DNA from: Escallonia rubra
Lineage: Eukaryota; Streptophyta; Magnoliopsida; Escalloniales; Escalloniaceae
Direction of reading: 5' to 3'
NCBI GenBank assembly: GCA_033065855.1
Contig: JAVXUO010000131.1
Span: 384,501 to 448,500 of the forward strand
Length of the DNA stretch: 64,000 nucleotides
Positions 7,290-64,000 of the stretch are shown here, in pieces (position 1 is the stretch's first letter; the number at the start of each line of letters is the position of its first letter). The position numbers and the translations under genes were made by a program. The notes beneath the pieces are model-generated. The model was not told the DNA's origin. It was given only the letters and a program-made list of their open reading frames with translations, and did no database searches.

Positions 7290-8280
7290 CTAAATTGTTA
7301 TATGTCTTGTGCTTAAACATGCAAGTTGCACTTCACATGCTTGAGCATTATCTCATATGCTTATAACATGCTTTGGTTGACTTTTCTCTTTCCAAAATTA
7401 TTGATTTTGTTGATATTCATTTAATCTCATTTGTTTAAATTGATTTGCACACACTTATATTGCCATTTACATATGCATAATCATTTCAAGACTGTTTGAT
7501 TTTTTTGCAATGAAGTCGACTGCATGTGGGAATACAGTCGACTATATTGTGGAATACAGTCGACTGCGTTACGGGGAAAGGGCTTAAATCTGGCCCATTT
7601 CGGCATATTCTCTCACCCTATCTCTATTAACTTCGAAACCTCTCTCTCTTCTCTCGCACAAGGACTCAATCCTATCGGTTTCGGCTTGAAATTGGTACGT
7701 AATTCTTCCGAAATCTTATTCTATTACATGTTTTACACACTTTCACCGATTGATTTCACCCACATTGTTCAAAATCTTTGAATATTCGAATTCTTACACT
7801 ATAGTACCATTTCATCATATTCACTTCTATTAAGCATGCTACTACATGTTTTAATGCTTGATTCATGCCTAGGGATGTTTATTACTTGATTCTACATAGT
7901 TTGATTACATGTGAATATGCAAAAATCGAATTTTCCCAAATTTCATAAACTAGGGTTTTAGATTTGTCAAAATTTCTTCAATTGATCATGCAATTACATG
8001 TTTGATCACTTAATTCTTGTTTAGTTATGTCTATTGCTCGCTTCTACATGGTTAATTACATTCATTTGACCAAAATTTGACTTTTCCCCAAATTGCATGA
8101 ACTAGGGTTTATATTTTTCAAAAATTATTTAAAATTCATGTATCTTTCATTTATTTTAGGCCTGAATTCATGTTACATTACCTATCTAGCATACTTTAAC
8201 ATGATTCATTTCAACAATTTCATAGAAAACATCAATTTTAAAAAATTTCATAAACCCTAATTTTCAATTTTTCTTAATTA

Positions 8281-9646: not shown

Positions 9647-10123
9647 GCTAGGACATAGTTAGTGTTTTGTGCTTAGGCTTTTCGACTCTATTATGTATTC
9701 AAAACTTGTCATGGATGCGACTCGTAGTATTGCATTAGAACTTGGGTTGATTTTTTAAAATTAGCACTTTGAATCACGCTGTTAACCCTTCGGTTATTTA
9801 ACCTAGGATTATATTTGATTTTGATGATAACTAACATTGATGATTATGCTGTCTAACATGCATTGAGTTGATGAAGCAATAGGAACAATCTCATACTCAT
9901 GCAAACGGATTATTAGACGAGCAACACGGTCAAAGACTCTCAACGGAACGCATCAAAGAGGGAATTCATCGATTGAAGTTTTCATGCTTTTATTTCCGTC
10001 TTTGTAAACTAGACATAGAGAGATGATCGTTACGATGACTGTATACCTAGAACTTGCCCATAGGTTTCCCTTGCATGCATAAAAGTTTTTCATGCTTTAA
10101 AAACAAGGAAACTGCATTTTCAG

Positions 10124-10338
10124 GAATGCAGTCGACTGCATTGGAATGTAGTCGACTGCAAGTTGGGCAGTGAGGTATTACAGTCGACTGCATTGGAATG
10201 TAGTCGACTGCAATACTTCCAGTAGCCTATTACAATCGATTGCAATGGATTACAGTCGACTGCAAGTTGGAAATTTGAATTTCCAACGGCTACTTTTGGG
10301 TTACAGTCGACTGCAATGGTGCATTGCAGTCGACTGTA
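10124..10338. promoter_or_regulatory. Cluster of GCAGTCGACTGC palindromes in U3
   Basis: Eight 10-12-bp palindromic sites, perfect or with one change, spaced about 20-50 bp and lying 60-280 bp upstream of the LTR TATA box. The same cluster occurs at 11872-12052 in the 3' LTR. Position and repetition suggest protein-binding sites; that is inference. Confidence 0.55.
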
Positions 10339-11525: not shown

Positions 11526-12829
11526 TGTTAACCCCACGGTTATTTACCTAGGATTATATTTGATTTTGATGATAACTAACATTGATGATTGTGTTGTCTC
11601 ACATGCATTGAGTTGATGAAGAAATAGGTACAATCTCATACTCATGCAAACAGACAATTCGACGAGCCAAACGATCAAAGACACTTAACGGAACGCATCA
11701 AAGATGGAATACTTCGATTGAATTTTACAATGCTATTTAATTCATTTCCTTGTAACTAGACATAGAAAGTTGATCGTATCGATGACTATAACCTAGAATT
11801 TTTCCATAGATTTCCCTTGCATGCATAAACTTTTTCATTCTTTGAAAACAGGAAAAACTGCATATTCTGGAATACAGTCGACTGCATTGGAATTTAGTCA
11901 ACTCCAAGTTGGGCAATGAGGTATTACAGTCGATTGGATTCCAATGCAGTCGACTGCATTGGAATACAGTCGACTGCAATTGAAAATTTTGAATTTTCAA
12001 CAGCTAATTTGGAAATACAGTCGACTGTAATGGTACAATGCAGTCGACTGTGTTTACCGTATAGGACATTAAATGCCCCACCTACTTCCAAACGGTCATA
12101 TTAATTCCCACAACTATATAAAATCATTTTGGGCATAGTTTTGATTCATCAATTGCATTCAAAGCCTTCTTATCTTGCATAAACTCAAAGCTCAAAGCAA
12201 TTGTTCACTCTCTCTTAGTTTTCATTGTTTTCTCATGCAATTCAAGAGAGCTTTTATTGCGAGCTTGCATTTGAGAGACATGCACTTTCATAAGTCATCA
12301 TACACTTATCTCTCTTGTTCTAGAGCTTAAACTTGTACTCATCTACTTCTTGACAGTGAATCTTTGTACATAATTCTTCATCTAAAGTTTCTTGTATCAA
12401 AGCTTGGGGTTGTCAAGCTTTGGAGCTTTCGGATTGTAAAAGCTTGTTCTTGATGTGAGTATAGCATCAAGGGATTGTAAGAGGTTCGATCTTGACCCGT
12501 AAGAAAGATCATTCTAGTGGATTCTAGGGCCTTTCAAGGGACTTCCTTGAAGGGGTTGACGTAGGCTTGAGGGTAATTCGAGCTGAACCATCTAAATCTC
12601 AAGCGTCAAGTATCTCTAAACCCTTCTCTCTTTACATTATTGTCTTATACTTTTGTTGAGATTGGTTAGCTTGCTTATTTGAGATATTATGATTGTGCTT
12701 TGATGTTTTAAGCTATCTAAGTGTTCATCATAGTTTCTCGAAGTTTGTTGTGATCTCTTGTTTATTTTTAAAGTAGTCTTAAAACCCTATTCACCCCCCC
12801 CCCCCTCTAGGGTTATTTTATTGGTTTCA
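11526..12829 (+). repeat. 3' LTR of the Sirevirus
   Basis: 1304 bp, TGTTAACC start and GGTTTCA end, directly followed by the GTGAT duplication (12830-12834). It contains the palindrome cluster (11872-12052), a TATA box near 12114 and a poly-C run near 12794. It differs from the nested solo LTR by many substitutions and small indels, so the two insertions are not recent copies of each other. Confidence 0.93.
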
Positions 12830-18419: not shown

Positions 18420-18899
18420 AGAAAAATGATACAAGTAATATATAAAAAGCCTCGAGAAAGAAGATGCCAGAGAGGGAGAGGGAGAGAGAGAAAGAGAGAG
18501 TGAAAAGGAGATAGAGAGAGAAAGGAAAGAAGTCGTGTAACCGCTACAAAGAGTAACCGTTAGGGCCCCACGGTGACCACAAATCTTTGTGGCGGTTACG
18601 TGGGCCAGTGACCTCCACTCTTTGTAGAGGTCAGCACAAATTGGTGGGCCATTAACCTCTACAAAGAGTGGCGGTTAGCTTATTGATGCTGGGCCATTAA
18701 CCTCTACTCTTTGTAGAGGTTAGCAAATTTTGAACTGGGAAGGGCATTTTTGGCTTTTGCCCTAACCAGTTATAAGAGTGGCGGTTAGCACTTTTTGCAG
18801 AAATAAAGAAAAATCTGGGCCATCCACGGGTACACGTGGACGGCCAGATATGTGGTGGAGAAATTGTTATTTCTCTACCGATAGACAGGGATCGGCTAT
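18420..18899 (-). mobile_element. Terminus of a second Mutator-like element, facing left
   Basis: Read on minus from 18899 it starts GCCGATCCCTG and continues with CTGGCCGTCCACGTG. This parallels the end of the large element next door (GCTGATCTGTTG ... CTGGCCGTCCATCC). It contains paired hairpin words built on CTACAAAGAGTGGCGGTTA and its complement (18540-18800), the same design as the neighbour's palindromic inverted repeats but with a different core word. An AG-rich tract occupies 18465-18535. No coding sequence or opposite terminus was found, so it is probably a truncated or non-autonomous relative. Confidence 0.5.
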
Positions 18900-18924
18900 A
18901 TATATATATATATATATATATATA
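18900..18924. repeat. (TA)n microsatellite between two Mutator-like termini
   Basis: About 25 bp of TA repeats separates the left-facing terminus ending at 18899 from the large element beginning near 18925. A longer (TA)n lies at the other end of the large element (28053-28114). Confidence 0.9.
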
Positions 18925-19190
18925 ACTGATCCGTTTACCGCACGGCAATCCTTAAAGGATGGACGGCCCAGATCCGTCCGCCACACAGAATGGTGGACTA
19001 ACCTTTTGACCAAAACACCCCCCACTGCCCATCCGCTATTCAGTGTAGCGGATAATTTTTTGACCCTGACAATTGTCAGTCAAAAAATCATCCGCCACAC
19101 TGTTTAGCGGACGACTTTTTGACTGACCTACTGTCACATCTTGTCCCCCCCCCCCCTCCCTCGTCCACCAGACAGTGTGGCGGACGCCAA
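18925..19190 (+). repeat. Left terminal inverted repeat with internal hairpins
   Basis: Aligns with the reverse complement of about 27690-28046. It contains four imperfect palindromes centred near 18990, 19040, 19102 and 19175, each made of GTCCGC(T/C)ACAC and its complement, and a poly-C run (19146-19156). Confidence 0.75.
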
Positions 19191-19756
19191 ATTTTGATAA
19201 TTCCCAGCTCTTCTTCCATTTTCAGCTCTTCAGCTCCACTTGCCTCCATTTCTAGCTCCCTTTAAGTTCCTAGCTTCAAGCTTCACTCAAGCAAGGTAAA
19301 TGGGTGAATGGTGAAGTTTTTTTTATGGGTAAATTGTTAAGATTTTTTTCGATGTTTATATAAAAAAATTTGAGATTCTGTTTGTTGTATTTATCAGCTA
19401 TTCATCAAATTAATTTTAATTTGTTATGTTCAAGAAATTAATTATTGTTAAATTCGCATTTTTTTTAGATTATGTTTGTCGTATTTGGCATGCTAAATTG
19501 GTCTATTCATCAAAGTTATTTTGATTTGTTATGTTCAAGAAATTAAGTTGTTAATTTCAAGAAATTAATAATTGTTAATTTCGATTTTTCTTGAGATTAT
19601 GTTTGTTATATTTGTCATGCTAAATTGGTTTATTCATCAAAGTAATTTTGATTTTCTGTGTTCAAGAAACGCCCTTTTTTAATTAATTTGCATGCCTAAA
19701 AATGTTACAATCTAATTGTTAAACGTAATTTATTTCTACATAGGTTTTGTTTCACA

Positions 19757-22015
19757 ATGTCTGATTCGTGTCAAGCTCGAAGACCCCAGTAGATGTTAGT
19801 GATCTGTATCTAGGGCGAAGGTTTCGAATATTGGAAGAAGCCGAAGAATGTTTTCGAGCGTATTCGTTGAGGGTTGGTTTTGGCATTAGAGTCAAGACAA
19901 CTAGAACAAGCAACATAACAAAACAAATATGCTCTCGCTTATACAAGTGTCATAGGAGCAGATACCCATTGCAAAATGAGCAACACGTCGGTAGTGATGA
20001 TAGTGATGAGGAAATAAGATATGCGCGGAGAAGACGAGATTTCTTTGCGCACACGAATTGCAAGGTCAACATGTTCATAAGCCATAAACCCAAGAAAGAT
20101 CATTGGTTTATTAATAGCTTGGAATTGGCACACAATCACCCGTTAGTAACCCCTTCGAAGGTGAGTCAGATGCATCAACAGAAGAAGATGGGTAAGGTTG
20201 CAAGGAGCCTGAATCACACAATGAGTAATGCACGGATAGGACCTATCGACATTGTTAATGTTCTTACTGAACAGCCTGGGGGAATTCAGAATCTAAACTT
20301 TAACACAACAGACGTTCGTAACGTGGTAAACCCAAAGACGAGCCGCGTATGAACTCAACGATGCTCAATCCACAATGAGCCTATTGAAGCGGATGCAGAT
20401 GGAGGACCCGCACTTTACCTACGATTATAAACTTGATGACGAGCACCGAGTTACCACAATTTTTTGGGTCGACGGTCGTTCAAGACTTGATTATAAACAT
20501 TTTGGGGATGTTGTGACTTTCGACACCACATACCGTACCAACAAGTACTCAATGTCGTTCGCTCTTTTCACAGGCGTTAATCACCATTATCACTCCATCC
20601 TGTTCGGGTTCGCATTATTAAGAGATGAGAGCGAGAGTTCTTTTGTATGGTTGTTTAAGACGTGGCTAGAATTCATGAACAACAAAGCACCTAAAGTTAT
20701 CATCACCGATCAAGATTTGGCAATGAAGAAGGCTATTGCTACCGTCTTCCCAGATACTTGACACAACTTGTGCAGTTGCCACATAAGCAACAAACAAGAT
20801 TTTGAGAGGTGCGTTAACAAGTCGTTAACTATTGAAAAATTTGAAGAGAGGTGGGAAAAGCTTGTTCAAGATTACTCACTGCAAGACCACGAGTGGCTCC
20901 AATACTTGTATGAGCTCAAAGATTAATTGATTGGCGTTTACACGAGAAGGTATTTTTCTACGGGCATGAAAAGGACGGGCATGAGTGAATCTATGAATGC
21001 CACATTCGATAGTTATGTAGGTACAGCTACAAATTTGAAGAATTTCGTCACATCCGCTCAAAAAGCGGTTGCACAGTTATTCGTGAAAGAAAGGGTTGCG
21101 GACTTTCCAGGCACGTACAAACAAAAGAGAAGGTTGCTTGAGACCCCGTTAGAGGTGAATGGTGCAAAAGTCTATACGAAGGAGATGTTCATGCAATACC
21201 AAGTGGAGCTACAAAATCGTGACGATACAGTATAAACAAGGTCATAGAAAAGTCTACACGTGAGTACAAGGTTTATTCGTTGGTGAACGACCTCGCCCCT
21301 GAGATGGTACGTAGATTGTATATGGTGAGCCATGACACATAGACGGATTCGGTGAAATGTGTTTGCAAGAAGTTTGAGTTCATGGCATGATGTGTAGACA
21401 TATTCTGCAGTTTTTCACCCAAAATAATATCAAGGCAATCCCCAATAAATACGTCTTGCCGCGGTGGACTAAGGTTGCCAACAGGTTGCAGGGTACCATT
21501 GCCTTTCCGAAACATCTGTATACTGACTTTGAAGAATCAGAGACGTTGCGGTATAATCATCTGGTGACAATGTTTACAAGTTTGTCCGTAAAGGGTGTTG
21601 CTACAATGGTCGGATATAAACATCTCTACGAGATAGCAGAGCAGTAAAAGCCGATCGTCGACCAGTTTGAAATAGCTTCAGTCACCAATGCGGTTGACAC
21701 TGAGCCTACGCAGGGATCAGAAGATGATGCACTGGTTGAGGAAGAGGACAATGATATCGGGCCTTTGGATCCAACTATATCGCAAACGAAAGGCCGCAAG
21801 AGATCTACACGGATGAAGAGCTCTATTGAACAAGCAACTCAACCTAAAAAGCTGAGAAGGTGTGCACTATGCAACAAAATGACCAACCATGACAAACGGA
21901 ACCATTACAAGGCACTGGGGATAAGTCCAGGGGGTTTGCAAGATGAGGAAGAAGATGATGCCGAACAAGATGCAGTGGATCTTTGGACTAAAAGAAAAAT
22001 TATAATAATGTTTTA
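19757..22015 (+). pseudogene. FAR1/MULE-type transposase (MURA-like)
   Basis: The first ATG (19757) is out of frame with the conserved body. The frame VSDLYLGRRF then shows a FAR1-like N-terminus (EEAEECFRAYSLRVGFGIRVKT, about 19830-19900). The MULE transposase core follows at about 20460-20760: FWVDGRSRLDY, VVTFDTTYRTNKYSMSFALFTG (first catalytic Asp) and KVIITDQDLAM (second Asp). A SWIM zinc finger (CVCKKF then CRHILQFF, about 21360-21415) is split by a stop and frameshift. The C-terminus has an acidic stretch and CALCNKMTNHDKRNH. Breaks: frameshift near 20350, TGA at 20759-20761, TAA near 20923, TAA at 21233-21235, TGA near 21388 and TAA near 21645. The order FAR1-MULE-SWIM is the standard MURA architecture. 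It would catalyse excision and integration in the nucleus; this copy cannot. Confidence 0.88.
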
Positions 22016-22155
22016 GGAGCCATCATGTCTGTTGGCGTATTTAAATTGTAGACTTTGTAATAATCCTAAATGTTTATTCATATTCAAATGTTACTGTACC
22101 ATTTGGTTATTCACGAATTGTGTTTCTTTACCATCTAAATTTTAATGTACTCTTG

Positions 22156-24000
22156 CAGAAACATTACACTCCAACACTTAGAATATTTTTGGTGTTCTAT
22201 ACCATTCGCTACACTATGTAGCGAACGGTGTAGCAGAAACATTAAACTCTAACACTTAGAATATTTTTGGTGTTTTACTCCGTCCGCTACACTGTGTAGC
22301 GGACGGCGTAGCAAAAACATTACACTCCAACACTTAAAATATTTTTAGTATTTTATACCGTCCTCTACATAATGTAGCGGACGGCGTACCAGAAATATTA
22401 AACTCCAGCACTTAGAATATTTTTTGGTGTTTTATACTGTCTCCTACATAGCGTAGCGGATGGTGTAGCAAAAACATTAAACTCCAACACTTAGAATATT
22501 TTTGGTGTTTTATTACGTTCACTACACTGTGTAGCGGACGGTGTAGCAGAAACATTGCACTCCAACATTTAGATTATTTTTTGTGTTTTATATCATCCGC
22601 TACACTACGTAGCGGACGACGTAGCAGAAAATTTACACTCCAACACTTAGATTTTTTTTTTGGTGTTTTATTTTCGTCCGTTACACAGTGTAGCGGACGG
22701 CTTAGCAGAAACATTAGAGTCCAACACTTAGAATATTTTTGGTGTTCTGGCCGTCAGCTACACTATATAGCGGATGGCATAGCAGAAACATTACACTCCA
22801 ACACTTAGAATATTTTTGGGGTTTTATACCATCCACTACACTATGTAGCGGACGGTGTTGCAGAAACATTAAACTCTAACACTTAGAATATTTATGATGT
22901 TTTACTCCGTCTGCTACACTATGTAGCGGACGGCGTAGCAAAAACATTACACTCCAACACTTAGAATATTTTTAGTATTTTATATCGTTCGCTACATAAT
23001 GTAGCGGACGGTGTAGCAGAAATATTAAACTCCAACACTTAGAATATTTTTGGTATTTTACTACGTTCGCTACACTGTGTAGCGGACGGCGTAGCAGAAA
23101 CATTGCACTCCAACATTTAGATTATTTTTGGTTTTTTATATCGTCTGCTACACTATGTAGCGGACGGCGTAACAGAAACATTACACTCCAACACTTAGAT
23201 TTTTTTTGGTATTTTACTCCATCCGTTACACTGTGTAGCGGACGGCTTAGCAGAAACATTAGAGTCCAGCACTTAAAATATTTTTGGTGTTCTGGCCGTC
23301 TGCTACACTATATAGCAGATGGCATAGCAGAAACATTATATTCCAACACTTAGAATATTTTTGGTGTTTTATACCGTCCGCTACACAACAGAAAACATTA
23401 CACTCCAACACTTAGATTTTTTTTAGTGTTTTACTCCATCTGCCACACAGTGTAGCGGACAGCCCAGCAAAAACATTGGAGTCCAACACTTTTTTGGTAT
23501 TATGGTCGTCCGCTATACTATGTAGCGGACGGAGTAGCAGAAACATTAAACTCCAACACTTAGAATATTTTTGGTATTTTACTACGTCCCCTACACTATG
23601 TAGCGGTCGGCGTAGCAGAAACATTAAACTCTAACGCTTAGAATATTTTTTGGTGTTTTACTCCGTCCACTACACAGTGTAGCAGAAACATTGCACTCTA
23701 ACACTTGTTTTTAGTGTTTTACTCCATCCGCTAGAATGTGTAGCAGACAATGTAGCTGAAAACATTACACTCCAACACTTAGATTTTTTTTGGTGTTTAA
23801 CTCTGTTTGCTACACAGTGTAGTGGACGGCCTAGCAGAAACATTGGAGTCCAACACTTCGAATATTTTTGGTGTTCTGGCCGTCCGCTATACTATGTATC
23901 GGACGGAGTAGCAGAAACATTACACTCCAACACTTAGAAATTTTTTGGTGTTTTAGCCGTCCACTACATAGTGTAGCGGACAAAGTAGCAGAAACACCTA
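22156..24000. repeat. Hairpin tandem array, about 25 units of 77 bp
   Basis: Each unit reads roughly AGCAGAAACATTACACTCC, AACACTTAGAATATTTTTGG, TGTTTTA, then an imperfect palindrome of GTCCGCTACAC and its complement around a central A/T. Units are about 68-80 bp. Some palindromes carry compensating changes and some are decayed. The palindrome is the same word found in the terminal inverted repeats. A higher-order period is visible: the block starting at 22156 recurs at about 22779, and that at 22546 recurs at about 23091. The array fills the gap between the convergent transposase and PMD/Ulp1 genes and encodes nothing recognisable. Confidence 0.92.
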
Positions 24001-24195
24001 AAAAAAATTCCCTCATTTTCTTACCCACCATCAACCTGTCTCAAGAAGGGCAAAAAAAAAAACCACAACACACAAAATTCTTAACCACAACACAAATGTC
24101 TAATTCACATTGACTTTCATAAACAAATGAGATCAAATGTTTCAAAATCACAAGTAGTTTGAAGTAACAATGTTGTGTCATAAAAATAAATGTTT

Positions 24196-25060
24196 ACAAT
24201 TTCATTTGGCCACATCTTGAGCCGGATTCTCGTCGTTAGCCAGATTTACAATATTCCTAACTACTCTAGGTCGGCCAGTATGAATCTGCCAAGCTATCCT
24301 ATATCTAAAGTTTTCTATGTTTGCTTTGCTCCAGACGGCCTTCTTGAGGCTCTCATTCCGACAAATGTAGTCCATGTACATAATGACGAAGACGCCGCAG
24401 TCCGAATGATTAGCTTGTTTGGCTCTCCGTCTCTTCAATCGAACTTCAGTCTTCGGCTTCCCCGGTACTTTTAGTCCACAGAAAGAGTGAACCATGGCAC
24501 AAAACAGAACCTGTGGATAAATAAAAAATGGCGCAAGCTACGAGATGACAATTACAATAAGCAAAAAACAACAATCGCAAGATTACCATAGCATCCAATT
24601 GGGCTTTAAAAATTTTCTTCGCGGGCATCTCTCTGGCATTGTCGTGGAGACTATCGAGGATTGTTATGATCATTTTTTTTATTCATAACAAACCAAGTAC
24701 CAGTGGTTCACATTGCCCAAGAAGGGTAATAGAAAGACGTCCGCATCAAGGGCACTCACCGGACTCAACCTATTCTCAAGAAATGCAGTTAGCGAACTAG
24801 GCTGACGCCACTGGAGCAAGCTTTTCCTCCCCCTCACTGTTGTCCAACTTCTCCATTGGGGAATAAGCATGTCATGAAAAATCGCATCCAACAAAAAAAT
24901 GCGGGGATACGCATTCCCCCAATCCCAACCCCGACGCATCAAAAGTTTGACGTAGGCAGTGATCACAGTGTCTTCCAACCAAGCCCCCGGAGTTAGGGTG
25001 GACATTCTGTCCCACGAGATATTATAATCCATATTATTCAAGTTGTTCACACCACTTTCC
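24196..25060 (-). pseudogene. Ulp1-like cysteine protease domain
   Basis: On the minus strand, WLEDTVITAYVKLL (about 24940-24980) is followed by VFLLPFLGNVNHWYLVCYE (catalytic His in NHW, about 24682-24735). Next come ITILDSL (catalytic Asp, about 24645) and, after a GT-AG intron (about 24511-24586), QANHSDCGVFVIMYMDYIC (catalytic Cys, about 24368-24425). The His, Asp and Cys of the C48 (SUMO protease) fold are all recognisable. A stop and frame change lie between the His and Asp segments (about 24672). The C-terminus (ENPAQDVAK) ends at 24202. Transposon-borne Ulp1 genes are common in plant Mutator-like elements; whether they cut SUMO is not known. It probably forms the 3' part of the PMD gene upstream. 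Confidence 0.82.
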
Positions 25061-25795
25061 GCTCGTAACTTGGGGGGGCCCGCTAAAGTAACATTGGTGG
25101 ATTAAAGCATATTTTGTCGGCTTTAGAGGCTATAACGGATGCCCTTTGGAATAAGTGGGAATGACACGGGGGGGGGGGGGGGTCGACCGAGGGATATTAC
25201 CATCCGGGGGGATGGACATGAGGATATTGTCCTTTGTGCGGCTCTTCGGCTATCCCAAGGCCGGAGGGTCCCGCCCAAGGGATGAGTGGCAATGACTCGA
25301 AGAGATTGAAGTTTGCAAAGTCGAAGTCTTGTGTGACTTGACTCCAAGAGAGTGGTGTAACCTCCGAGTCTCCAAGCAAAGCAAACAAGGGGGCACTGAA
25401 CTCATCCCAATGAGCCATTCCCATCCCCTTTGGCGGCCTCCAAGCACCACCCATCCCAGCTACGGAGGGACCACCAACTCCCTGTCTCACCCTCTAAGTC
25501 TGCCCCTAGGGATCATCGTATCCCTCGCTCACATGAGGAGGCTGCCACCCCAGATAATCCGTATAACGGCTCATAAACTCCCCGCAGCCCTTCGTTAGTA
25601 CCTCAACCTAGAAGTGAAGATCCATTCCCAGGGCATCCAGCAGATCCTGCCGCTCAATGAGCTTCTGGAAAAAGGCGAGCGAGGCATGAACCTACATCCA
25701 AAGAGACAAATAAGTAACTTCAAATTCTACAAACAGGATTGAATGTAAAACAAGAAACATTAAATTCAACTAAAAGCATCAGGCGACTTACGAGT
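25061..25795 (-). pseudogene. Linker between PMD and Ulp1 domains
   Basis: Open minus-strand text at 25197-25490 (GVGGPSVAGMGGAWRPPKG, then SQVTQDFDFANFNLFESL and Gly/Pro-rich residues) has low complexity and no domain I recognise. A G12 run at 25170-25181 and stops on both sides break the frame. It may be a disordered linker of one PMD-Ulp1 protein, or the separate ends of two genes. This is inferred from position only. Confidence 0.4.
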
Positions 25796-27170
25796 TCATA
25801 TGTCCTACCGTCATCGATCTGACCCCTACGGTGGTACTTCTGCCCTACTGTCCACCTTATTGGGCTATTCTCTTCTGAGTGATGTGCTAGTACCACCCGA
25901 GATATTGCTCAATGCTGACGACGGGGTCAGGCTCCGAAACAATGGCTGTCAGCGTGTCTTGCCAAGAACCCCACAGTTCAATTTCGTTTGCACACAATTC
26001 ATGCGCATTCACCTTGCCAAACCATGGGACACCCAGGGGGTTCCTATTAACCCTCATATCTGAGGCATCGGCTCCCAACCCCTGCAGGCAGTCAAAATGG
26101 TGCATTGTGCGATCCGGTAGTTGCCACTCCTCGATCTCGAAGTGGATTAGTGGTGTGAGTTGCAACCCAGAGAGCGTGAAGATGAAAGACTTTGCCACCT
26201 GTCCCGTCAAACTTTTGTACGGCGCCCAACACATTTGGCCCAGAGATAGCGAGTCGAACTCTCCCCGATATAACGTAATGTTGTGATGGGGATCATCTCT
26301 CCTTGGGTAGTGGCTCTCCCTCCGACTGTACTCCCAAGTGCATTATCGAGGCCACACATTATTGGTTCCCTTCCTACGGTTGGGTGCGCCGGTAGTAATA
26401 TGTTCATAAGACCACACCTGAGAACAATAAAAAAAATATGTAATGCACCGACTAATAAAAAAATATCAAAAACTTAATTACAAAGAGCTATATGATATAC
26501 CTGCAACAATGAAAGACATGTACATATAGATTTAGAGTCATGCCTCGTTGCCATGTGCAATGCTCGATACAAGTATGCAAGAGTTGCTGCACCCCAGGCA
26601 TACTCCCGAACCTCTTGCAGGTTACCCAACAACACTAAATATTTAGTGCTTACCGTATTCTTCGAGCTCGTTGGGAATATAATTGGCCCCATCACCCACA
26701 GCAAGAAGGCCTTTGTGTGCAACACAAGCATCTCCTACGTGTAGTATTCCGGCAGAACCCCGAAGTTTTCTAACAACCACCTCAACTTTATCCCACCAGT
26801 GCTAAATTCACTCTCGGGTATCGAAGTAAAGAAGTCCCTAGCAGCTCTCTTTTTTATACTTTCGACGGAGGAGCTATTACCGGCCGCCCCGTCACCGGTA
26901 ACCCTAAGATGAACCCTACTTCTTCTAAGGTTATTGTCATCTCTCCAAGAGGAAAGTGAAACGTATTCGTTTCACTTCTCCACCTTTCAACAAGGGCACC
27001 TATTAAGTTTCGGTCAATTTGCTGAAAGATATTCCCATGCTTGAAAACCCCAAACCTAATTCCACGCAGTAATTTTTTTTTGGAATTTGTTCAATTGCCA
27101 GCTATTGAATTGTTCGGTTACTTCTACTGTATTGAGTGGTGCTCTTTCCTACGAATTAATAAAGACAATT
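25796..27170 (-). pseudogene. Plant mobile domain (PMD) gene
   Basis: Minus-strand pieces in family order. LIGALVERWRSETNTFHFPL and GEMTITLEEVGFILGLPV lie at about 26880-27020. They are followed by AFLLWVMGPIIFP and EYAWGAATLAYLYRALHMAT (about 26540-26720), and CLSLLQ ending at an intron (donor near 26500, acceptor near 26419). VWSYEHITTGAP begins the next exon. ITLYRGEFDSLSLGQMCWAP (about 26225-26283) and LTPLIHFEIEEWQLPDRTMH then lead to VSIEQYLGWY near 25890. This is the PMD fold found in MAIN/MAIL proteins and in transposons. Frameshifts lie at an A-run near 27075 and near 26890, with a TAG near 26735. Host PMD proteins act in transposon silencing; the role of the transposon version is unknown. 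Confidence 0.85.
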
Positions 27171-27640
27171 TAAGCAAAGCAAAAGGTATACAATGTTCGT
27201 GAGAATAAGAAAATAAACAAAAAATAAGCATCTTACTTGTCCATTCTAGATAGATGTACTAATATGGTTTTCTAGGTCATATAATATGCCATTTTTTGTG
27301 GCTAAAATTATGGAAAAACATCGAATTTTGGAAGCGCACATACACACGGAATCTAGAAATTACCAACATTAGCACATGCTCAATACATATATATAAATTA
27401 CCAACGTTAGCATATGCATAATACATAATCAAAACCATGCATAATACACAATACTCATCACAAACTCTAGATTATAAACAAATAAAGGATTTGTTTGTGA
27501 ACTTACGTGATTAATTAGACGATTAAAGGACTTCTTAGGATGAAATTGCACAGATATGCTTGCCAACGCCGCTAAGAAGATTGGGAAGAAGAAAGAAGGG
27601 AGAAGACTTTCGAAATTAGGATTTGTTGTATATATATAGG
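27171..27640. other. 5' flank of the PMD/Ulp1 gene
   Basis: AT-rich, no coding content recognised. Two near-repeats around ACCAACRTTAGCAYATGC lie at about 27362-27420. This is where the promoter and any first exons of the minus-strand gene should be. Confidence 0.35.
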
Positions 27641-28046
27641 CCGTCTGCTACCTAATGTAGCGAACAGTGTGGATAAGGAAAAAGTAACAGTCATGGGGGG
27701 ACAAGATTTGACACTTGTCAGTCAAAAGCCGTCCGCCACACTGTGTAACGGATGACTTTTTGACTGACAATTGTTAGGGCAAAAAAGTTGTCTGCTACAC
27801 TGTGTAGCAGACGGGCAGCGGGGGGTGTTTCGGTCAAAAGGTCTGTCCGCCACACAGTCTGACAGACGGACCTTTTTAAAAAATATATATATATTTTTTG
27901 GGCCGTCCATCCTCATCCTTAAAGGATGGACGGCCAGATCGCGCGGGCAACTTAGCCCATATTGCTCATGCAGTCAACATATCAGCTATATATATATATC
28001 GCGCGGGCAACTTAGCCCATATTGCTCCTGCAGTCAACAGATCAGC
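27641..28046 (-). repeat. Right terminal inverted repeat with hairpins
   Basis: Reverse-complement partner of 18925-19190. It has four palindromes near 27655, 27742, 27801 and 27856 and the outer GGATGGACGGCC hairpin at 27901-27934. A 60-bp unit beginning CGCGCGGGCAACTTAGCC is tandemly duplicated (27940-27999 and 28000 onwards) at the very end, which the left side lacks. Confidence 0.75.
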
Positions 28047-28049
28047 TCC

Positions 28050-28052
<3 letters not shown>

Positions 28053-28114
<62 letters not shown>
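28053..28114. repeat. (TA)n microsatellite
   Basis: About 62 bp of TA repeats between the right Mutator-like terminus and the acidic coding tail. It yields a spurious Tyr-Ile reading frame. Confidence 0.95.
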
Positions 28115-40784: not shown

Positions 40785-41084
40785 GTTTAGGATTGTTTTT
40801 TGGTACTTCTTAAACTTGAAAAGATTCAATTCTAGTTTTTCAAAAGATGGGGTAGTTTAACGAGATGTTGGAAAAATGAGAGGCCAAAGAGATCATTTTT
40901 ATTTTGCCTATTTGTTTAAAAAAACATGGTTTCAAATCTTCCTCTCTAGCCAATGTGGGATATACCCGACTCACCCTTCGTTGCCCCAACCATCCTCTTG
41001 ATGTGGGATATACCCGGGCTTGCCTTTGTTTTCCCCAACCATTGGCAACCCGAGTGGATAGCCCAGCCCAAGCTTTCGAAAGTC

Positions 41085-41097
41085 GGCTCTGATACCA
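41085..41097 (-). other. TRIM primer binding site (first of six)
   Basis: TGGTATCAGAGCC on minus, separated by two bases from the LTR at 41100. It recurs at the equivalent place before each LTR (near 41445, 41805, 42165, 42525, 42954), with single-base changes in some copies. Confidence 0.85.
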
Positions 41098-42539
41098 TTT
41101 GTAACGACCCGGTTCACTGCCCCACCACAGGGCAATGCCTCCCTCAAAAGAGCTAGCCAAGTATGTACTTATGAGTTCCTTGGCAAGGTCTTATAAGGGT
41201 CATCTCATACTATTCCACAACTGATGTGGGATATTACAATCTCCCCACCTTATTCCTTAGCGTCCTCACTAAGGCTCGATCACACATAGCCCAAAATCTT
41301 CCTCTCTAGCCAATGTGGGATATACCCGGCTCACCCTTCGTTGCCTCAACCATCCTCTTGATGTGGGATATACCGGGGCTTGCCTTCGTTTCCCCCAACC
41401 ATTGGTAACCTGACTGGACAGCCCACCCTGAGCTTTCGAGAGTCGGCTCTGATACCATTTGTAACGAACCGATCCACGGCCCCACCACAGGGCATTGCCT
41501 CCCTCAAAAGGGCTAGCCAAGTAGGTACTTAAGAGTTCATGGGCAGGGTCTTATAAGGAAAATCACAAATCATCTCACATCTGATGTGGGATATCACAAT
41601 TTTCCCACCTTATGCCTTAGCATCCTCGCTAAGGCTCGGTCACACAAAGTCCAGAATCTTCCTCTCTAGCCAATGTGGGATATACCCGGCTCACCCTCCG
41701 TTGCCCCAACCATCCTCTTGATGTGGGATATACCCGGGCTTGCCTTTGTTTTCCCCAACCATTGGCAACCCGACTGGATAGCCCAGTTCGAGCTTTCGAG
41801 AGTCGGCTCGGATACCATCTGTAACGACCCGATCTACGGCCCCACCACAGGGCATTGCCTCCCTCAAAAGGGCTAGCCAAGTAGGTACTTATGAGTTCAT
41901 ATGCAGGGTCTTATAAGGCCAATTGTAAACTCTCCCACAACCGATGTGGGATATTACAATCTCCCCACCTTATTTCTTAGCGTCCTCGCTAAGGCTAGAT
42001 CACACATAGCCCAGAATCTTCCTCTCTAGCCAATGTGGGATATACCCGGCTCACCCTTCGTTGCCCCAACCATCCTCTTGATGTGGGATATACCGGGGCT
42101 TGCCTTCGTTTCCCCCAACCATTTGCAACCCGACTGGACAGCCCAACCCGAGCTCTCGAGAGTCGGCTCTAATACCATTTGTAACGACCCGGTCCACGAC
42201 CCCACCACAGGGCATTGCCTCTCTCAAAAGGGCTAGCCAAGTAGGTACTTAAGAGTTCATGGGCAGGGTCTTATAAGGCAAATCACAAATCATCCCACAT
42301 CCGATGTGGGATATCACAATCTCCCCACCTTATGCCTTAGCGTCCTTACTAAGGCTCGGTCACACAAAGTCCAGAATCTTCCTCTCTAGCCAATGTGGGA
42401 TATACCCAGCTCACCCTTCGTTGGCCCAACCATCCTCTTGATGTGGGATATACCCGGGCTTGCCTTTGTTTTCCCCAACTATTGGTAACCCGACTGGATA
42501 GCCCAGCCCGAGCTTTCGAGAGTCGGCTCTGATACCATC

Positions 42540-42747
42540 TGTAACGACCCGGTTCACTACCCCACCACAGGGCAATGCCTCCCTCAAAAGGGCTAACCAA
42601 GTAGGTACTTATGAGTTCCTTGGCACGGCCCCATCACAGGGCATTGCCTCCCTCAAAAGGGCTAGCCAAGTAGATACTTATGAGTTCATAGGCAGGATCT
42701 TATAAGGCCAATCGCAAACTCTCCCACAATCGATGTGGGATATTACA
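42540..42747 (-). repeat. TRIM LTR with internal 69-bp duplication
   Basis: 208 bp instead of 139. The segment carrying CACAGGGCATTGCCTCCCTC and AGTAGGTACTTATGAGTTC is present twice in tandem. Confidence 0.9.
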
Positions 42748-43071
42748 ATATCCCCACCTTATTTCTTAGCGTCCTCGCTAAGGCTCGATCACACATAGTC
42801 CAGAATCTTCCTCTCTAGCCAATGTGGGATATACCCAGCTCACCCTTCGTTGCCCCAACCATCCTCTTGATGTGGGATATACCGGGGCTTGCCTTCGTTT
42901 CCCCCAACCATTGGCAACCCGACTGGACAGCCCAGCCCGAGCTTTCGAGAGTTGGCTCTGATACCTTCTGTAACGACCCGGTCCACGACCCCACCACAGG
43001 GCATTGCCTCCCTCAAAAGGGCTAGCCAAGTAGGTACTTATGAGTTCATAGGCAGGGTCTTATAAGGCTCA

Positions 43072-46418: not shown

Positions 46419-46554
46419 TGCATCCCACATCGGTTGTGAGAGAGTTTGCAATTGGCCTTATAAGACCCTGCCTATGAACATATAAGTACCTACTTGGCTA
46501 GCCCTTTTGAGGGAGGCAATGCCCTGTGGTGGGGCCGTAGACCGGGTCGTTACA
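46419..46554 (+). repeat. TRIM LTR in inverted orientation
   Basis: The plus strand reads TGCATCCCACATCGG ... GGTCGTTACA, the reverse of the array copies. It begins with a small deletion after TG. It abuts the broken 5' edge of the Gypsy pol and has no primer site after it. Confidence 0.85.
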
Positions 46555-59278: not shown

Positions 59279-59287
59279 TTACAGTTA

Positions 59288-60646
59288 GAGAAAATTAGGA
59301 AAAAGTGGGTTTTTGGGTAAAATATTTGGGGTTGGTGGTTTTTTTTTGGGAAATTGTGAAAAGAGGGGGGGTAACTTTGAAATCTCTGAAAAGTGGGTTG
59401 GGTTGAAAAAAAATGGGTTTTTTGAAACTCACTATTTCCCCTTCCCCAAAATACCCTTCCCCGCCCAACTCTTCTCCCCCAATCCCTTCAGACCCCTCCC
59501 CCTCCAAAATTCTGCCTACCCCCACTCCACCCCCCACCCTGCTGCTGTAACACCAGTAGTGTAAACCCATTTTGAGTGTAACCATGAGTGCATGAGTGTA
59601 GTGTAATGTGTGTATGTGAGTGCTATGTGTGGTGATGTGTGTGTGAACCTGTGTGTGTGTATGTAATATATATCCACGAAGTGGTGTTACAGAGGAAGGA
59701 GAATGAGATGAAAATGGGGAGCAAGGGAAGCTGCGTGAACAGTAACCACGAAGTGGTGTTACAGAGGAAGGAGAATGAGATGAAAATGGGGAGCAAGAGC
59801 AGCTACGTGAACAGTAACCACGAAGTGGTGTTACAGAGGAAGGAGAATGAGATGAAAATGGGGAGCAAAGGAAGCTGCGTGAACAGTAACCACGAGCTGG
59901 TGGAGAGAAAGAAAAGAAAGGAAGAAGAAGAGAACCGAGCGGGTATTTGAGTTAGCGTTAAGTTTTGCACGTGCATATGTTAACGCAGGCTTATCGTTAG
60001 CAAGTGAAAATTTACAGTATAATACATTTGACCATATTAGAATTCTTGGCAAAGTTTTATAATTTTCTGAGATCGTATGAATTTTTAGTATTTTCTGTAA
60101 TTTCAGATTTGGAAAATTCTTTTGGAGCCTTTAAACCCAGAAAATGTTCTGGGAAAAATTAGAGTAATGTTCTTATGGTATAAATAAGACTTAGTTTGAA
60201 TTTGATGATTTTTGGAGTTGTTTTGCTATGATTTCCATATCGCATTGGTTTTAGCAAAACAAAAATCTAAAAATATTTTTATGTCTTTTAAATTTTGATT
60301 TTTATTTGTATTATTTTTTTATATACTTTAATGTTCTATTAAATATTATGGGACTTATTTTGCAGCTGTAGGTAATTATTGCTATTATTGGGTTTTCATT
60401 GTATTTAAAGAAATTATTTTAATTCGAAAATATTCAAAAATTCAGAAAATGCATATTTTGACTTTTAATAATATTTTAAGCTATAAGAGTATTTTAGTAT
60501 AAATTATTATAAATTCTAGAGTGTCGGTACCCGTTAAGGAGTGTATAGGATTTTTTGTCAGGTTGGCCGTGTGCGAGAACTGTTTTGAGTGCGCGATTTT
60601 CAGAGAGAGTGGGTACGCAGTGGGTAGTTGCCCACCCCCAGTAGCG
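59288..60646 (+). repeat. Left arm of the palindromic element
   Basis: Inverted copy of 62687-63971 with scattered substitutions. It holds three full 72-bp repeats (starting 59675, 59747, 59819; core CACGAAGTGGTGTTACAGAG) and a partial fourth; the right arm has one fewer. Confidence 0.93.
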
Positions 60647-62686
60647 TTATCTACTTACCAAATGGGGAACTAGTTTTGCACAGGAAATTCAGGCGGTGGT
60701 TTTGAAAAGCGTTTGCAAGACATCTCGTGTTTCCTGAAGGGGAAATAGTCTATTCACATATATTAGTACTAGGTTGGCTTAATTGGCCTGAATAGGGTAA
60801 GTTGGTACACTTCCACTATTGCCAGAAACCCAGACAATGGATGTTACAGTTTTTTTCGGTTTGTGTTACTATTCATCACATGTCATGTCTTAATATTCAT
60901 TCACATGTCATGTGCCCAAAAAAATTCATCCAGACAATGGAAGTGCTCGTCTAGTTTACGTGCGAATATTGGGGTCCCATGAACAACAAGGAAGTGGAAG
61001 TGTAGGCGCAAACGGATCGTGGTGGCACCAGTCGGTTTGTGCGAAAACAACAGTCAATTTCTGCGAAAACACCAATCGGTTTCTGCAAAAACACCAGTCG
61101 GTTTCTGCAAAACCACCAGTCGATTTCTGCAAACGTGCTCGTCGGATTGTGCGGATGCGCAAGTCAATTTATGCAAAAGTTAGCATATGGGGTTCGGGCC
61201 CCGCAAGAAAAACGATCTCGGCGGGACCACTACATATGTGGGGGGCCCTTGCGGGCCCCACGCAAACACATTGCCCTTGCACCTCTCATGTTCACTGAGG
61301 GCTGTCAGTGTCCCCTGCTAGTATGCGAACTCGGTTTTATGAAATTACGTAACCTCTCCGTTAGGGCGCATCTTATCGCCCAGTTTCATCGTGGTTGTTT
61401 CGGCCATGAGGAGTCCGATGCGGGGTGGTTGATGTGTTTAGTGTGAATTTTCTAAAGAAGCGGAAGTGTAGACGCAAATGGATCGTGGTGGCACCAGTCG
61501 GTTTCTGCGAAAACACCAGTCAGTTTCTGCAAAAACACCAGTCGGTTTCGCAAAACCACCGGTCGGTTTCTGCAAATGTGCTCATCGGATTGTGCGGATG
61601 CACAAGTCAATTTATGCAAAACTTACGGGGCGGAGCCCAGCTCCATTTCTTCTGGGTGGGAGCACTACATACGTGGGATGACCGTGTGGAAATCACGGGC
61701 TAAGCGGAACATTGCCAACTTATACTATTCAACCTTTGCAGCGCATGGCCATCTTAGCCATGACCAAGGGCTGCTCGCTAATATTATCTGTTGTTGAAAG
61801 TCCCGTAAAGGTACTTCTTCATGGGACCCCCTTATTCGCACGTAAACTAGACGAGCACGTCCCATAAAGGTACTTAAAATGACCTTAGCCTTCCCCATGT
61901 ACTTAAAATGACCTCCGTAAGTTTTGCATAAATTGACTTGCGCATCCGCACAATCCGATGAGCACATTCTCAGAAACCGATCGGTGGTTTTGCGAAACCG
62001 ACTGGTGTTTTTGCAGAAACCGACTGGTGTTTTCGCAGAAACCGACTGGTGCCACCACGATCCGTTTGCGTCTACACTTCCGCTTCCTTAGAAAATTCAC
62101 GCTAAACACATCAACCACCCGCATTGGACTCCTCATGGCCGAAACAACCACGATGAAACTGGGCGATAAGATGCGCCCTAACGGAGAGGTTACGTAATTT
62201 CATAAAACCGAGTTCGCATACTAGCAGGGGACACTGACAGCCCTCAGTGAACACGAGAGGTGCAAGGGCAATGTGTTTGCGAGAGCCTGCCTCTTACTAA
62301 TCTCTGTCATTGTGGTTCTGTTGCTGCAAGCAAGGATACAAATAGATCACCAAAATTGCATTGTAATCCTTGTTTTCCTTATGTTGTTCCTTGTTCGGCA
62401 TTATCGAAAACAAATGAGAAGAAAAACAAATAAACCGCTGTCATCAATCAGTACTTTTCAAACGCTTGGGCATCTCTCTCTCTCTCTCTCTCTCTAGACA
62501 TCACCATCTACAACCAGCCCCTTCATCTGGACACATCAACATCTACCAGCAGCCCATTCAACTTCTGGACACATCACCATCTACAACCATTTGTGAAGCC
62601 GTGAACGGATGGTGCCCCTCATTCTCTAAGCGAGAGAGAAGGAGGCAGTAGGTGGGCACGTGCCCCCCTGTGCCCCCCGCTGCCTC
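60647..62686. repeat. Central region with nested inverted repeats
   Basis: About 61263-61625 is the inverted copy of about 61915-62275, separated by roughly 290 bp. A related third copy lies at about 60915-61185. All contain a 21-22-bp tandem word ACCAGTCGGTTTCTGCAAAA (61030-61130, 61490-61580, and inverted at 61965-62050). Alternating frames stay open across these repeats without recognisable protein domains. Confidence 0.85.
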
Positions 62687-62694
62687 CGCTACTG
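62480..62694 (-). mobile_element. hAT-like terminus inside the palindromic element
   Basis: On minus from 62694 it reads CAGTAGCGGAGGCAG, followed by CACGTGCCCACC and CTGCCTCC words and GATGTCCAGA/GATGTGTCCAGA repeats. This matches the start of the 972-bp hAT at 32027. The other hAT end and a duplication were not found, so it is partial. Confidence 0.6.
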
Positions 62695-63971
62695 GGGGTG
62701 GGCAACTACCCACTGCGTACCCACTCTCTCTGAAAATCGCGCACTCAAAACAGTTCTCGCACACGGCCAACCTGACAAAAAATCCTATACACTCCTTAAC
62801 GGGTACCGACACTCTAGAATTTATAATAATTTATACTAAAATACTCTTATAGCTTAAAATATTATTAAAAGTCAAAATATGCATTTTCTGAATTTTTGAA
62901 TATTTTCGAATTAAAATAATTTCTTTAAATACAATGAAAACCCAATAATAGCCATAATTACTTCCAGCTGCAAAATAAGTCCCATAATATTTAATGGAAC
63001 ATTAAAGTATATATAAAAATTATAGAAATAAAAATCAGAATTTAAAAGACATAAAAATATTTTTAGATTTTTCGTTTTGCTAAAACCAATGCGATATGGA
63101 AATCATAGCAAAACAACTCCAAAAATCATCAAATTCAAACTAAGTCTTATTTATACCATAAGAACATTACTCTAATTTTTCCCAGAACATTTTCTGGGTT
63201 TAAAGGCTCCAAAAGAATTTTCCAAATCTGAAATTACAGAAAATACTAAAAATTCATACGATCTCAGAAAATTATAAAACTTTGCCAAGAATTCTAATAT
63301 GGTCAAATGTATTATACTGTAAATTTTCACTTGCTAACGATAAGCCTGCGTTAACATATGCACGTGCAAAACTTAACGCTAACTCAAATACCCCGGTTCT
63401 CTTCTTCTTCCTTTCTTTTCTTTCTCTCCACCAGCTCGTGGTTACTGCTCACGTAGCTTCCTATGCTCCCCATTTTCATCTCATTCTCCTTCCTCTGTAA
63501 CACCACTTCGTGGTTACTGTTCACGCAGCTTCCCTTGCTCCCCATTTTCATCTCATTCTCCTTCCTCTGTAACACCACTTCGTGGATATATATTACATAC
63601 ACACACACAGGTTCACACACACATCACCACACATAGCACTCACATACACACATTACACTACACTCATGCACTCATGGTTACACTCAAAATGGGTTTACAC
63701 TACTGGTGTTACAGCAGCAGGGTGGGGGGTGGAGTGGGGGTAGGCAGAATTTTGGAGGGGGAGGGGTCTGAAGGGATTGGGGGAGAAGAGTTGGGCGGGG
63801 AAGGGTATTTTGGGGAAAGGGAAATAGTGAGGTTCAAAAAACCCATTTTTTTTCAACCCAACCCACTTTTCAAAGATTTCAAAGTTACCCCCCCTCTTAT
63901 CACAATTTCCCAAAAAAAAACCACCAACCCCAAAAATTTTACCCAAAAACCCACTTTTTCCTAATTTTCCC
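62687..63971 (-). repeat. Right arm of the palindromic element
   Basis: Reverse complement of the left arm, 1285 bp. It is shorter by about 74 bp, essentially one 72-bp unit. It ends 29 bp before the window edge, with the TTACAGTTA duplication outside it. Confidence 0.93.
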
Positions 63972-64000
63972 TTACAGTTACATAGAGAGGAACCAAAGAA

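Follow-up and report, generated by a model that had tools for sequence, protein, structure and literature searches.

A tandem array repeating the terminal dyad between the convergent genes of a degraded FAR1-type Mutator-like element in Escallonia rubra

A degraded FAR1-type Mutator-like element (MULE) of Escallonia rubra, located at about 18926-28041 of the stretch of DNA analysed here (the window, i.e., 64 kb), contains a tandem array that repeats the dyad of the element's own ends; the observation made in the original prediction is confirmed. By analogy with known transposon systems, the array may represent tandem binding sites for a protein encoded by the element, the likeliest role being anti-silencing. 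This reading is put first only tentatively, and neutral repeat growth is a close rival.

The element and its internal array

The features of the element are the following (coordinates in the window, strand, nature):

18926..19187, plus: left terminal inverted repeat (TIR), abutting a (TA)n tract at 18897-18924
18974..19000, plus: left TIR dyad L1 (dyad search)
19029..19055, plus: left TIR dyad L2 (dyad search)
19088..19114, plus: left TIR dyad L3 (dyad search)
19161..19187, plus: left TIR dyad L4 (dyad search)
19765..22016, plus: degraded transposase gene, with a FAR1 DNA-binding domain followed by a MULE (DDE) domain (Pfam; 3' end putative)
22155..23996, plus: tandem array of 24 units, most commonly of 78 bp, 23 of them with the dyad (Tandem Repeats Finder, spacer split)
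24202..27287, minus: degraded gene for a plant mobile domain (PMD) and a C48/Ulp1 protease, in several frames (Pfam, reading frames)
27641..28041, minus: right TIR, its terminal 60 bp repeated (27938-28062, a short TA tract separating the copies) ahead of a long (TA)n tract
27641..27667, minus: right TIR dyad R4, innermost (dyad search)
27729..27755, minus: right TIR dyad R3 (dyad search)
27788..27814, minus: right TIR dyad R2 (dyad search)
27843..27869, minus: right TIR dyad R1, outermost (dyad search)

The TIR arms 18970-19150 and 27695-27873 are 81% identical over an inverted alignment of 181 columns. A longer inverted alignment reaches similar ends, each adjoining a TA tract (18897-18924 and 28050-28114), i.e., the element is inserted inside a TA microsatellite. 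Both flanks are (TA)n, in which a target-site duplication of about 9 bp cannot be read.

On the plus strand, Pfam matches FAR1 (PF03101, 1e-13) and MULE (PF10551, 3.8e-26). On the minus strand, it matches pieces of PMD (1.3e-22 and 1.9e-21, a third one at 2.6e-8 being just below the cut-off) and of Ulp1/C48 (PF02902, 8.1e-7, a further piece at 0.0019 being below the cut-off). The Ulp1 (C48) gene runs opposite to the transposase gene, and both the transposase and the PMD/Ulp1 genes are interrupted by in-frame stops and frame changes. The frame 21648-22016 is without Pfam match and presumably represents the 3' end of the transposase gene. The closest relatives found belong to Escallonia, for the transposase (78% over 69% of the query) as well as for PMD (66-69% over 54-67%). 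PMD and Ulp1 are joined in 3 of 52 hits (P0104, P0222 and P0223, including Apium and Heracleum), and the carrot protein P0081 unites FAR1, MULE and Ulp1. In viral contigs, a pattern scan gave no match, a scan for a transposase relative gave 13 pattern matches of which none was confirmed, and one for a PMD relative gave none.

Tandem Repeats Finder gives a period of 78 across 22155-23386, and periods of 156 and 234 across 22155-23996. Cut at the spacer, the array is made of 24 head-to-tail units (the last one cut at 23987), of which 14 have exactly 78 bp and the others 62 to 81 bp. A unit consists of a dyad with 12-bp arms, CCGTCCGCTACA ... TGTAGCGGACGG, and of an AT-rich spacer, GCAGAAACATTACACTCCAACACTTAGAATATTTTTGGTGTTTTA. 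A dyad close to CCGTCCGCTACAC.T.GTAGCGGACGG is present in 23 of the 24 units, including unit 20; unit 16 has half a dyad only. The left arm is often imperfect. About 25 tandem units, each with a palindrome, had been announced: the tandem array stands, while the count is slightly lower and one unit lacks the full dyad.

The window contains GTCCGCTACAC 37 times with at most one mismatch, vs. 0.31 times expected, and none of 100 shuffles reaches this count. Searched over 24 scored positions and allowing up to 7 mismatches, the 27-base dyad occurs at 31 sites of the window: each array unit except unit 16 has one (23 in total), and either TIR has four. The four palindromes announced for each TIR are thus exact. 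The dyad is absent from the genes and introns of the element, and from the rest of the window outside the element (up to 8 mismatches); 1000 dinucleotide shuffles of the TIRs contain no dyad site. A dispersed satellite inside the window is ruled out, since no dyad occurs there outside the element.

The array lies in the 3'-3' interval, as had been stated, because the plus frame stops at 22016 and the minus Ulp1 frame ends at 24202. It starts 138 bp beyond the last frame on the transposase side, and is separated by 205 bp from the end of the Ulp1 frame. The CpG observed/expected ratio is 1.06 for the array, 0.84 for the element and 0.69 for the window, i.e., the array is without the CpG depletion of its surroundings.

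A second TIR-like stretch, at 18530-18900, meets the same TA tract from the left. It has different palindromes (e.g., TAACCTCTACTCTTTGTAGAGGTTA) and four matches to the core CCGCYAC/GTRGCGG, and may be one end of a related element. In 1-15 kb, the presence of a second MULE was rejected: the six-frame Pfam search gave Copia-type, tnp2 (Transposase_21) with DUF4218 and Transposase_32 (PF20167) domains, and no MULE, FAR1 or PMD. Scattered palindromes of the CAGTCGACTG type are found at 2914-2952, 7514-7567, 10123-10338 and 11925-11978, amid Copia-type and other transposon domains. A large inverted repeat at 59281-63978, which aligns at 97-98% over 905 and 550 columns, contains 72-bp tandem repeats within the arms and 22-bp repeats in its interior; it is perhaps a young long-TIR or foldback element. 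Tandem repeats of 360 bp and 429 bp are found at 40935-43054, with inverted partial copies at 46422-46554.

Growth of the array and conservation of its arms

Seen from the first block, the nearest partners of units 1, 2, 3, 5, 6, 7 and 8 are units 9, 10, 11, 12, 13, 14 and 15, respectively. Unit 4 has no such partner; units 12 and 14, seen from their side, are as near or nearer to other units. The mean identity between units peaks at lags 7 (0.805) and 8 (0.796), lags 10 (0.792) and 5 (0.790) being close. Units 16-24 are more ragged than the rest. We read this as growth of the array through block duplication, followed by later change.

The two arms of the dyad are unequally conserved in the array, as counted on 22 of the 24 units (units 16 and 20 omitted). 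Departures from the consensus number 40 in the left arm vs. 19 in the right arm; by block, they are 14 vs. 7 (units 1-8), 12 vs. 3 (units 9-15) and 14 vs. 9 (seven of units 17-24). Parsimony on a tree derived from the spacers gives 36 changes for the left arm and 17 for the right arm (p 0.013). Transitions at C/G sites amount to 31/176 in the left arm and 15/176 in the right arm (p 0.017). Across seven block-duplicated pairs of partners (unit 4 omitted), differences amount to 12/84, 4/84 and 21/350 for the left arm, the right arm and the spacer, respectively. Divergence per site is 0.152 for the left arm, 0.072 for the right arm, 0.333 for the loop, 0.193 for the 4-base tail, and 0.074, 0.123 and 0.081 for the three parts of the spacer. 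Strand-biased deamination does not fit these counts as the origin of the asymmetry, because C-to-T changes and G-to-A changes alike are about twice as frequent in the left arm as in the right one. The asymmetry hints at a directional half-site, but this is suggestive only: the units are not independent, the test was chosen post hoc and the p values are modest.

In the eight TIR dyads the arms are equal (21 vs. 21 mismatches), thus a directional half-site is unsupported in the TIRs. Between the left and right TIRs, identity is 51/69 in the dyads, i.e., below the 96/112 of the spacers. Unless it results from CpG decay, which is possible, the difference argues against dyads under strong constraint.

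Pairing between the arms is close to that of shuffled controls. The array gives 211 pairs vs. 211.6 when the right arms are shuffled among units, and the TIRs give 67 pairs vs. 65.5. For 30 dyads, paired cells represent 86.1% vs. 85.8% when shuffled (reached by 188 of 500 shuffles), and cells changed on both sides are 9 vs. 6.3 (73 of 500). As for the covariation score, 42 of the 500 shuffles reach it. These both-side changes and the covariation score lean weakly toward conserved pairing. Slid controls pair far less, as expected with a structure taken from the consensus. With arms that pair at the level of shuffles, there is no clear sign of selection on pairing. A conserved RNA or cruciform structure is unsupported, the search of Rfam giving moreover no match at gathering score.

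Candidate roles of the array

The reading which we prefer, without holding it as probable, can be described as follows. The array would be a tandem amplification of the recognition motif of the element (TGTAGCGGACGG and its mirror copy), and a protein encoded by the element would bind this motif at both ends and in the middle. Numerous copies of either the PMD/Ulp1 product or the FAR1-type transposase would gather at the ends and in the intergenic interval. The recruited protein would then keep silencing marks off the entire element, as VANC does on VANDAL elements. The motif is found only at the ends and in the noncoding middle, the array grew by blocks and one arm is better kept; these facts call for a cause, and a motif-binding protein of the element would supply one.

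Several observations point to binding. A directional half-site would give the asymmetry of the array arms. The association of PMD and Ulp1 in the second gene argues for a VANC-like function, as some VANDALs carry a VANC with an Ulp1 domain (KIU), and the block-duplicated units resemble the expanding tandem targets of VANC. DUF1985 (the VANC domain) has matches inside the PMD stretch of all seven PMD proteins among eight proteins scanned (E from 1.5e-6 to 0.16); none of these matches reaches the Pfam cut-off and most are weak, and the protein with the strongest one, P0190, had been picked for a DUF1985 label that it already bore. PMD may be akin to the VANC domain. On the contrary, the TIR dyads, without arm asymmetry and less conserved than their spacers, argue against binding sites; so does the fact that array and element are known from a single decayed copy.

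Three roles had been proposed originally, i.e., internal binding sites for the transposase, a bidirectional terminator and a source of hairpin RNA. Protein binding sites fit best, the transposase being only one possible binder. By analogy with VANC and KIU, as reported in excerpts of PMC5735166 and PMC13317346, the product of the second gene may be at least as good a candidate. A stronger version of the binding reading would be that a sequence-specific anti-silencing system exists outside the VANDALs of Arabidopsis, in an asterid MULE with TIRs and a FAR1-type transposase. Its target would be the amplified TIR palindrome, through which a single protein (PMD/Ulp1 or transposase) would mark the ends as well as the centre of the element. 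This version is considered rather unlikely.

Neutral growth, the close rival, is judged only a little less plausible than binding. A copy of the TIR palindrome would have landed or arisen in the tolerant interval that separates the 3' ends. It would then have been amplified without function through slippage or unequal exchange, the dyad perhaps helping. The block duplication and the shortened units are what such a by-product would leave. The arm pairing similar to that of shuffles, in the array as in the 30 dyads, and the weaker conservation and equal arms of the TIR dyads agree with it also. Moreover, satellite expansion from tandem repeats of a foldback transposon is known (PMC4079207, in part). 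However, the array has a kept arm and a free arm, and the right arm, though CpG-rich, has not diverged more quickly than most of the spacer. It is also placed in the 3'-3' gap and nowhere else.

It is unlikely that the array acts in transposition itself, as a set of internal transposase binding sites serving as an enhancer, as a looping bridge between the ends or as a sink limiting the transposase. The array dyad is of the same kind as the TIR dyads, FAR1 supplies the transposase with a DNA-binding domain, and the THAP domain of Galileo binds sites in tandem repeats of the TIR (excerpts of PMC3688188). The core CCGCYAC/GTRGCGG, with its four matches in 18530-18900 vs. seven in the window outside 18530-28041, can be counted on the same side, though this was noticed post hoc. 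Against this role, the secondary sites known from the excerpts cited lie in or near the termini and not about 3 kb inside, and the ends might suffer competition from numerous internal sites.

A role as RNA has a still smaller probability. Read-through would produce a hairpin RNA, which would stop both transcripts or feed small-RNA silencing. Both strands of the array fold far better than shuffles (-664.2 vs. -423.6, z -23.8, and -662.5 vs. -447.7, z -24.3; 20 shuffles each), and the convergent 3' ends could supply both strands. AATAAA is absent between either stop and the array, and two copies lie inside it on the minus strand (22509 and 22667). Variant signals nevertheless precede the array (AATAAT at 22059, plus strand; AAGAAA at 24022, minus strand), so transcripts may end earlier. 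The excess of folding would be expected of any array of palindromes; the arms are without clear compensation beyond shuffles, and Rfam offers no support. The hairpin and terminator roles originally proposed thus keep a low, non-negligible probability. As single-stranded DNA, three units fold at -17.3, -11.9 and -7.5 kcal/mol (0, 0 and 20 of 200 shuffles being as good), and three TIR dyads at -5.9, -7.3 and -10.1 kcal/mol (4, 0 and 0 of 200).

That the units encode a tandem peptide repeat ending one of the proteins is scarcely credible: 78 is divisible by 3 and the consensus unit is open in one frame per strand, but in the open plus frame, where the coding repeat was rejected, the three codon positions have 62, 88 and 64 substitutions, respectively (i.e., no third-position excess), synonymous changes are 34 vs. 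53.5 expected, and of the 10 units which, as cut for this count, deviate from 78 bp, 9 do so by other than a multiple of 3.

Comparison with known systems

The comparisons given here follow excerpts of the papers cited. VANC21 binds YAGTATTAY in vivo and in vitro. The protein occupies noncoding sequence, whether intronic, intergenic or terminal, and its targets form tandem repeats that change quickly (PMC5735166). RNA-directed DNA methylation (RdDM) and VANC work on common regions (PMC10398659). According to a 2026 review, some VANC genes have Ulp1 domains (KIU) and act on motifs of noncoding regions (PMC13317346). MULEs with tandem or internal copies of TIRs also exist (PMC3310237). In view of the internal sites of VANC21 and of such MULEs, the original prediction goes too far in its premise that binding sites are normally confined to the termini.

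The VANDAL and KAONASHI (KI) elements are MULEs with a transposase and a second protein, and with tandem repeats of short motifs in noncoding regions; in KI-MULEs the Ulp1-bearing second gene is opposite to mudrA (PMC5735166, PMC13317346, PMC2528002). VANDALs are however non-TIR or have degenerate TIRs, and their motifs (YAGTATTAY; AGTTGTCC, AGTTGTAC) are short and not long palindromes. The Escallonia element has a FAR1-type transposase, a second gene with PMD rather than a DUF1985 match above the cut-off, and a motif common to the array and the TIRs. It is not a VANDAL, because it has clear TIRs.

MuTAnT, a MULE of Medicago, has foldback TIRs and (TA)n tracts as insertion sites (PMC4486113). 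AutoMuTAnT differs by its single transposase ORF, no internal array being mentioned in the excerpts of the same paper, and the GGGG terminal bases of MuTAnT are absent from the Escallonia element, as compared by printed termini. MuDR, from maize, has two convergent genes between its TIRs and a transposase binding a TIR motif of about 32 bp (PMC3310237); its second gene is mudrB, and no such array is named in the excerpts. Galileo, Tetris and other Foldback-like elements have repeated TIR units, which in Galileo hold transposase binding sites (PMC3688188, PMC4079207), but these repeats are inside the TIRs and not between convergent genes. In multiple-TIR MULEs the TIR sequence recurs internally (PMC3310237); whole TIRs are duplicated there, whereas the Escallonia element repeats the palindrome only, with a different spacer. 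Among the open-licence titles and abstract openings listed, which give weak evidence of absence, no MULE was found with an array repeating the TIR palindrome between convergent genes.

If neutral, the array would be a clean case of a TIR palindrome seeding an internal satellite. If it does bind a protein of the element: (i) proteins of transposable elements with tandem noncoding targets would not be peculiar to VANDALs; (ii) the PMD/Ulp1 genes borne by plant transposons would receive a testable role; (iii) it would suggest how one motif could serve both end recognition and anti-silencing.
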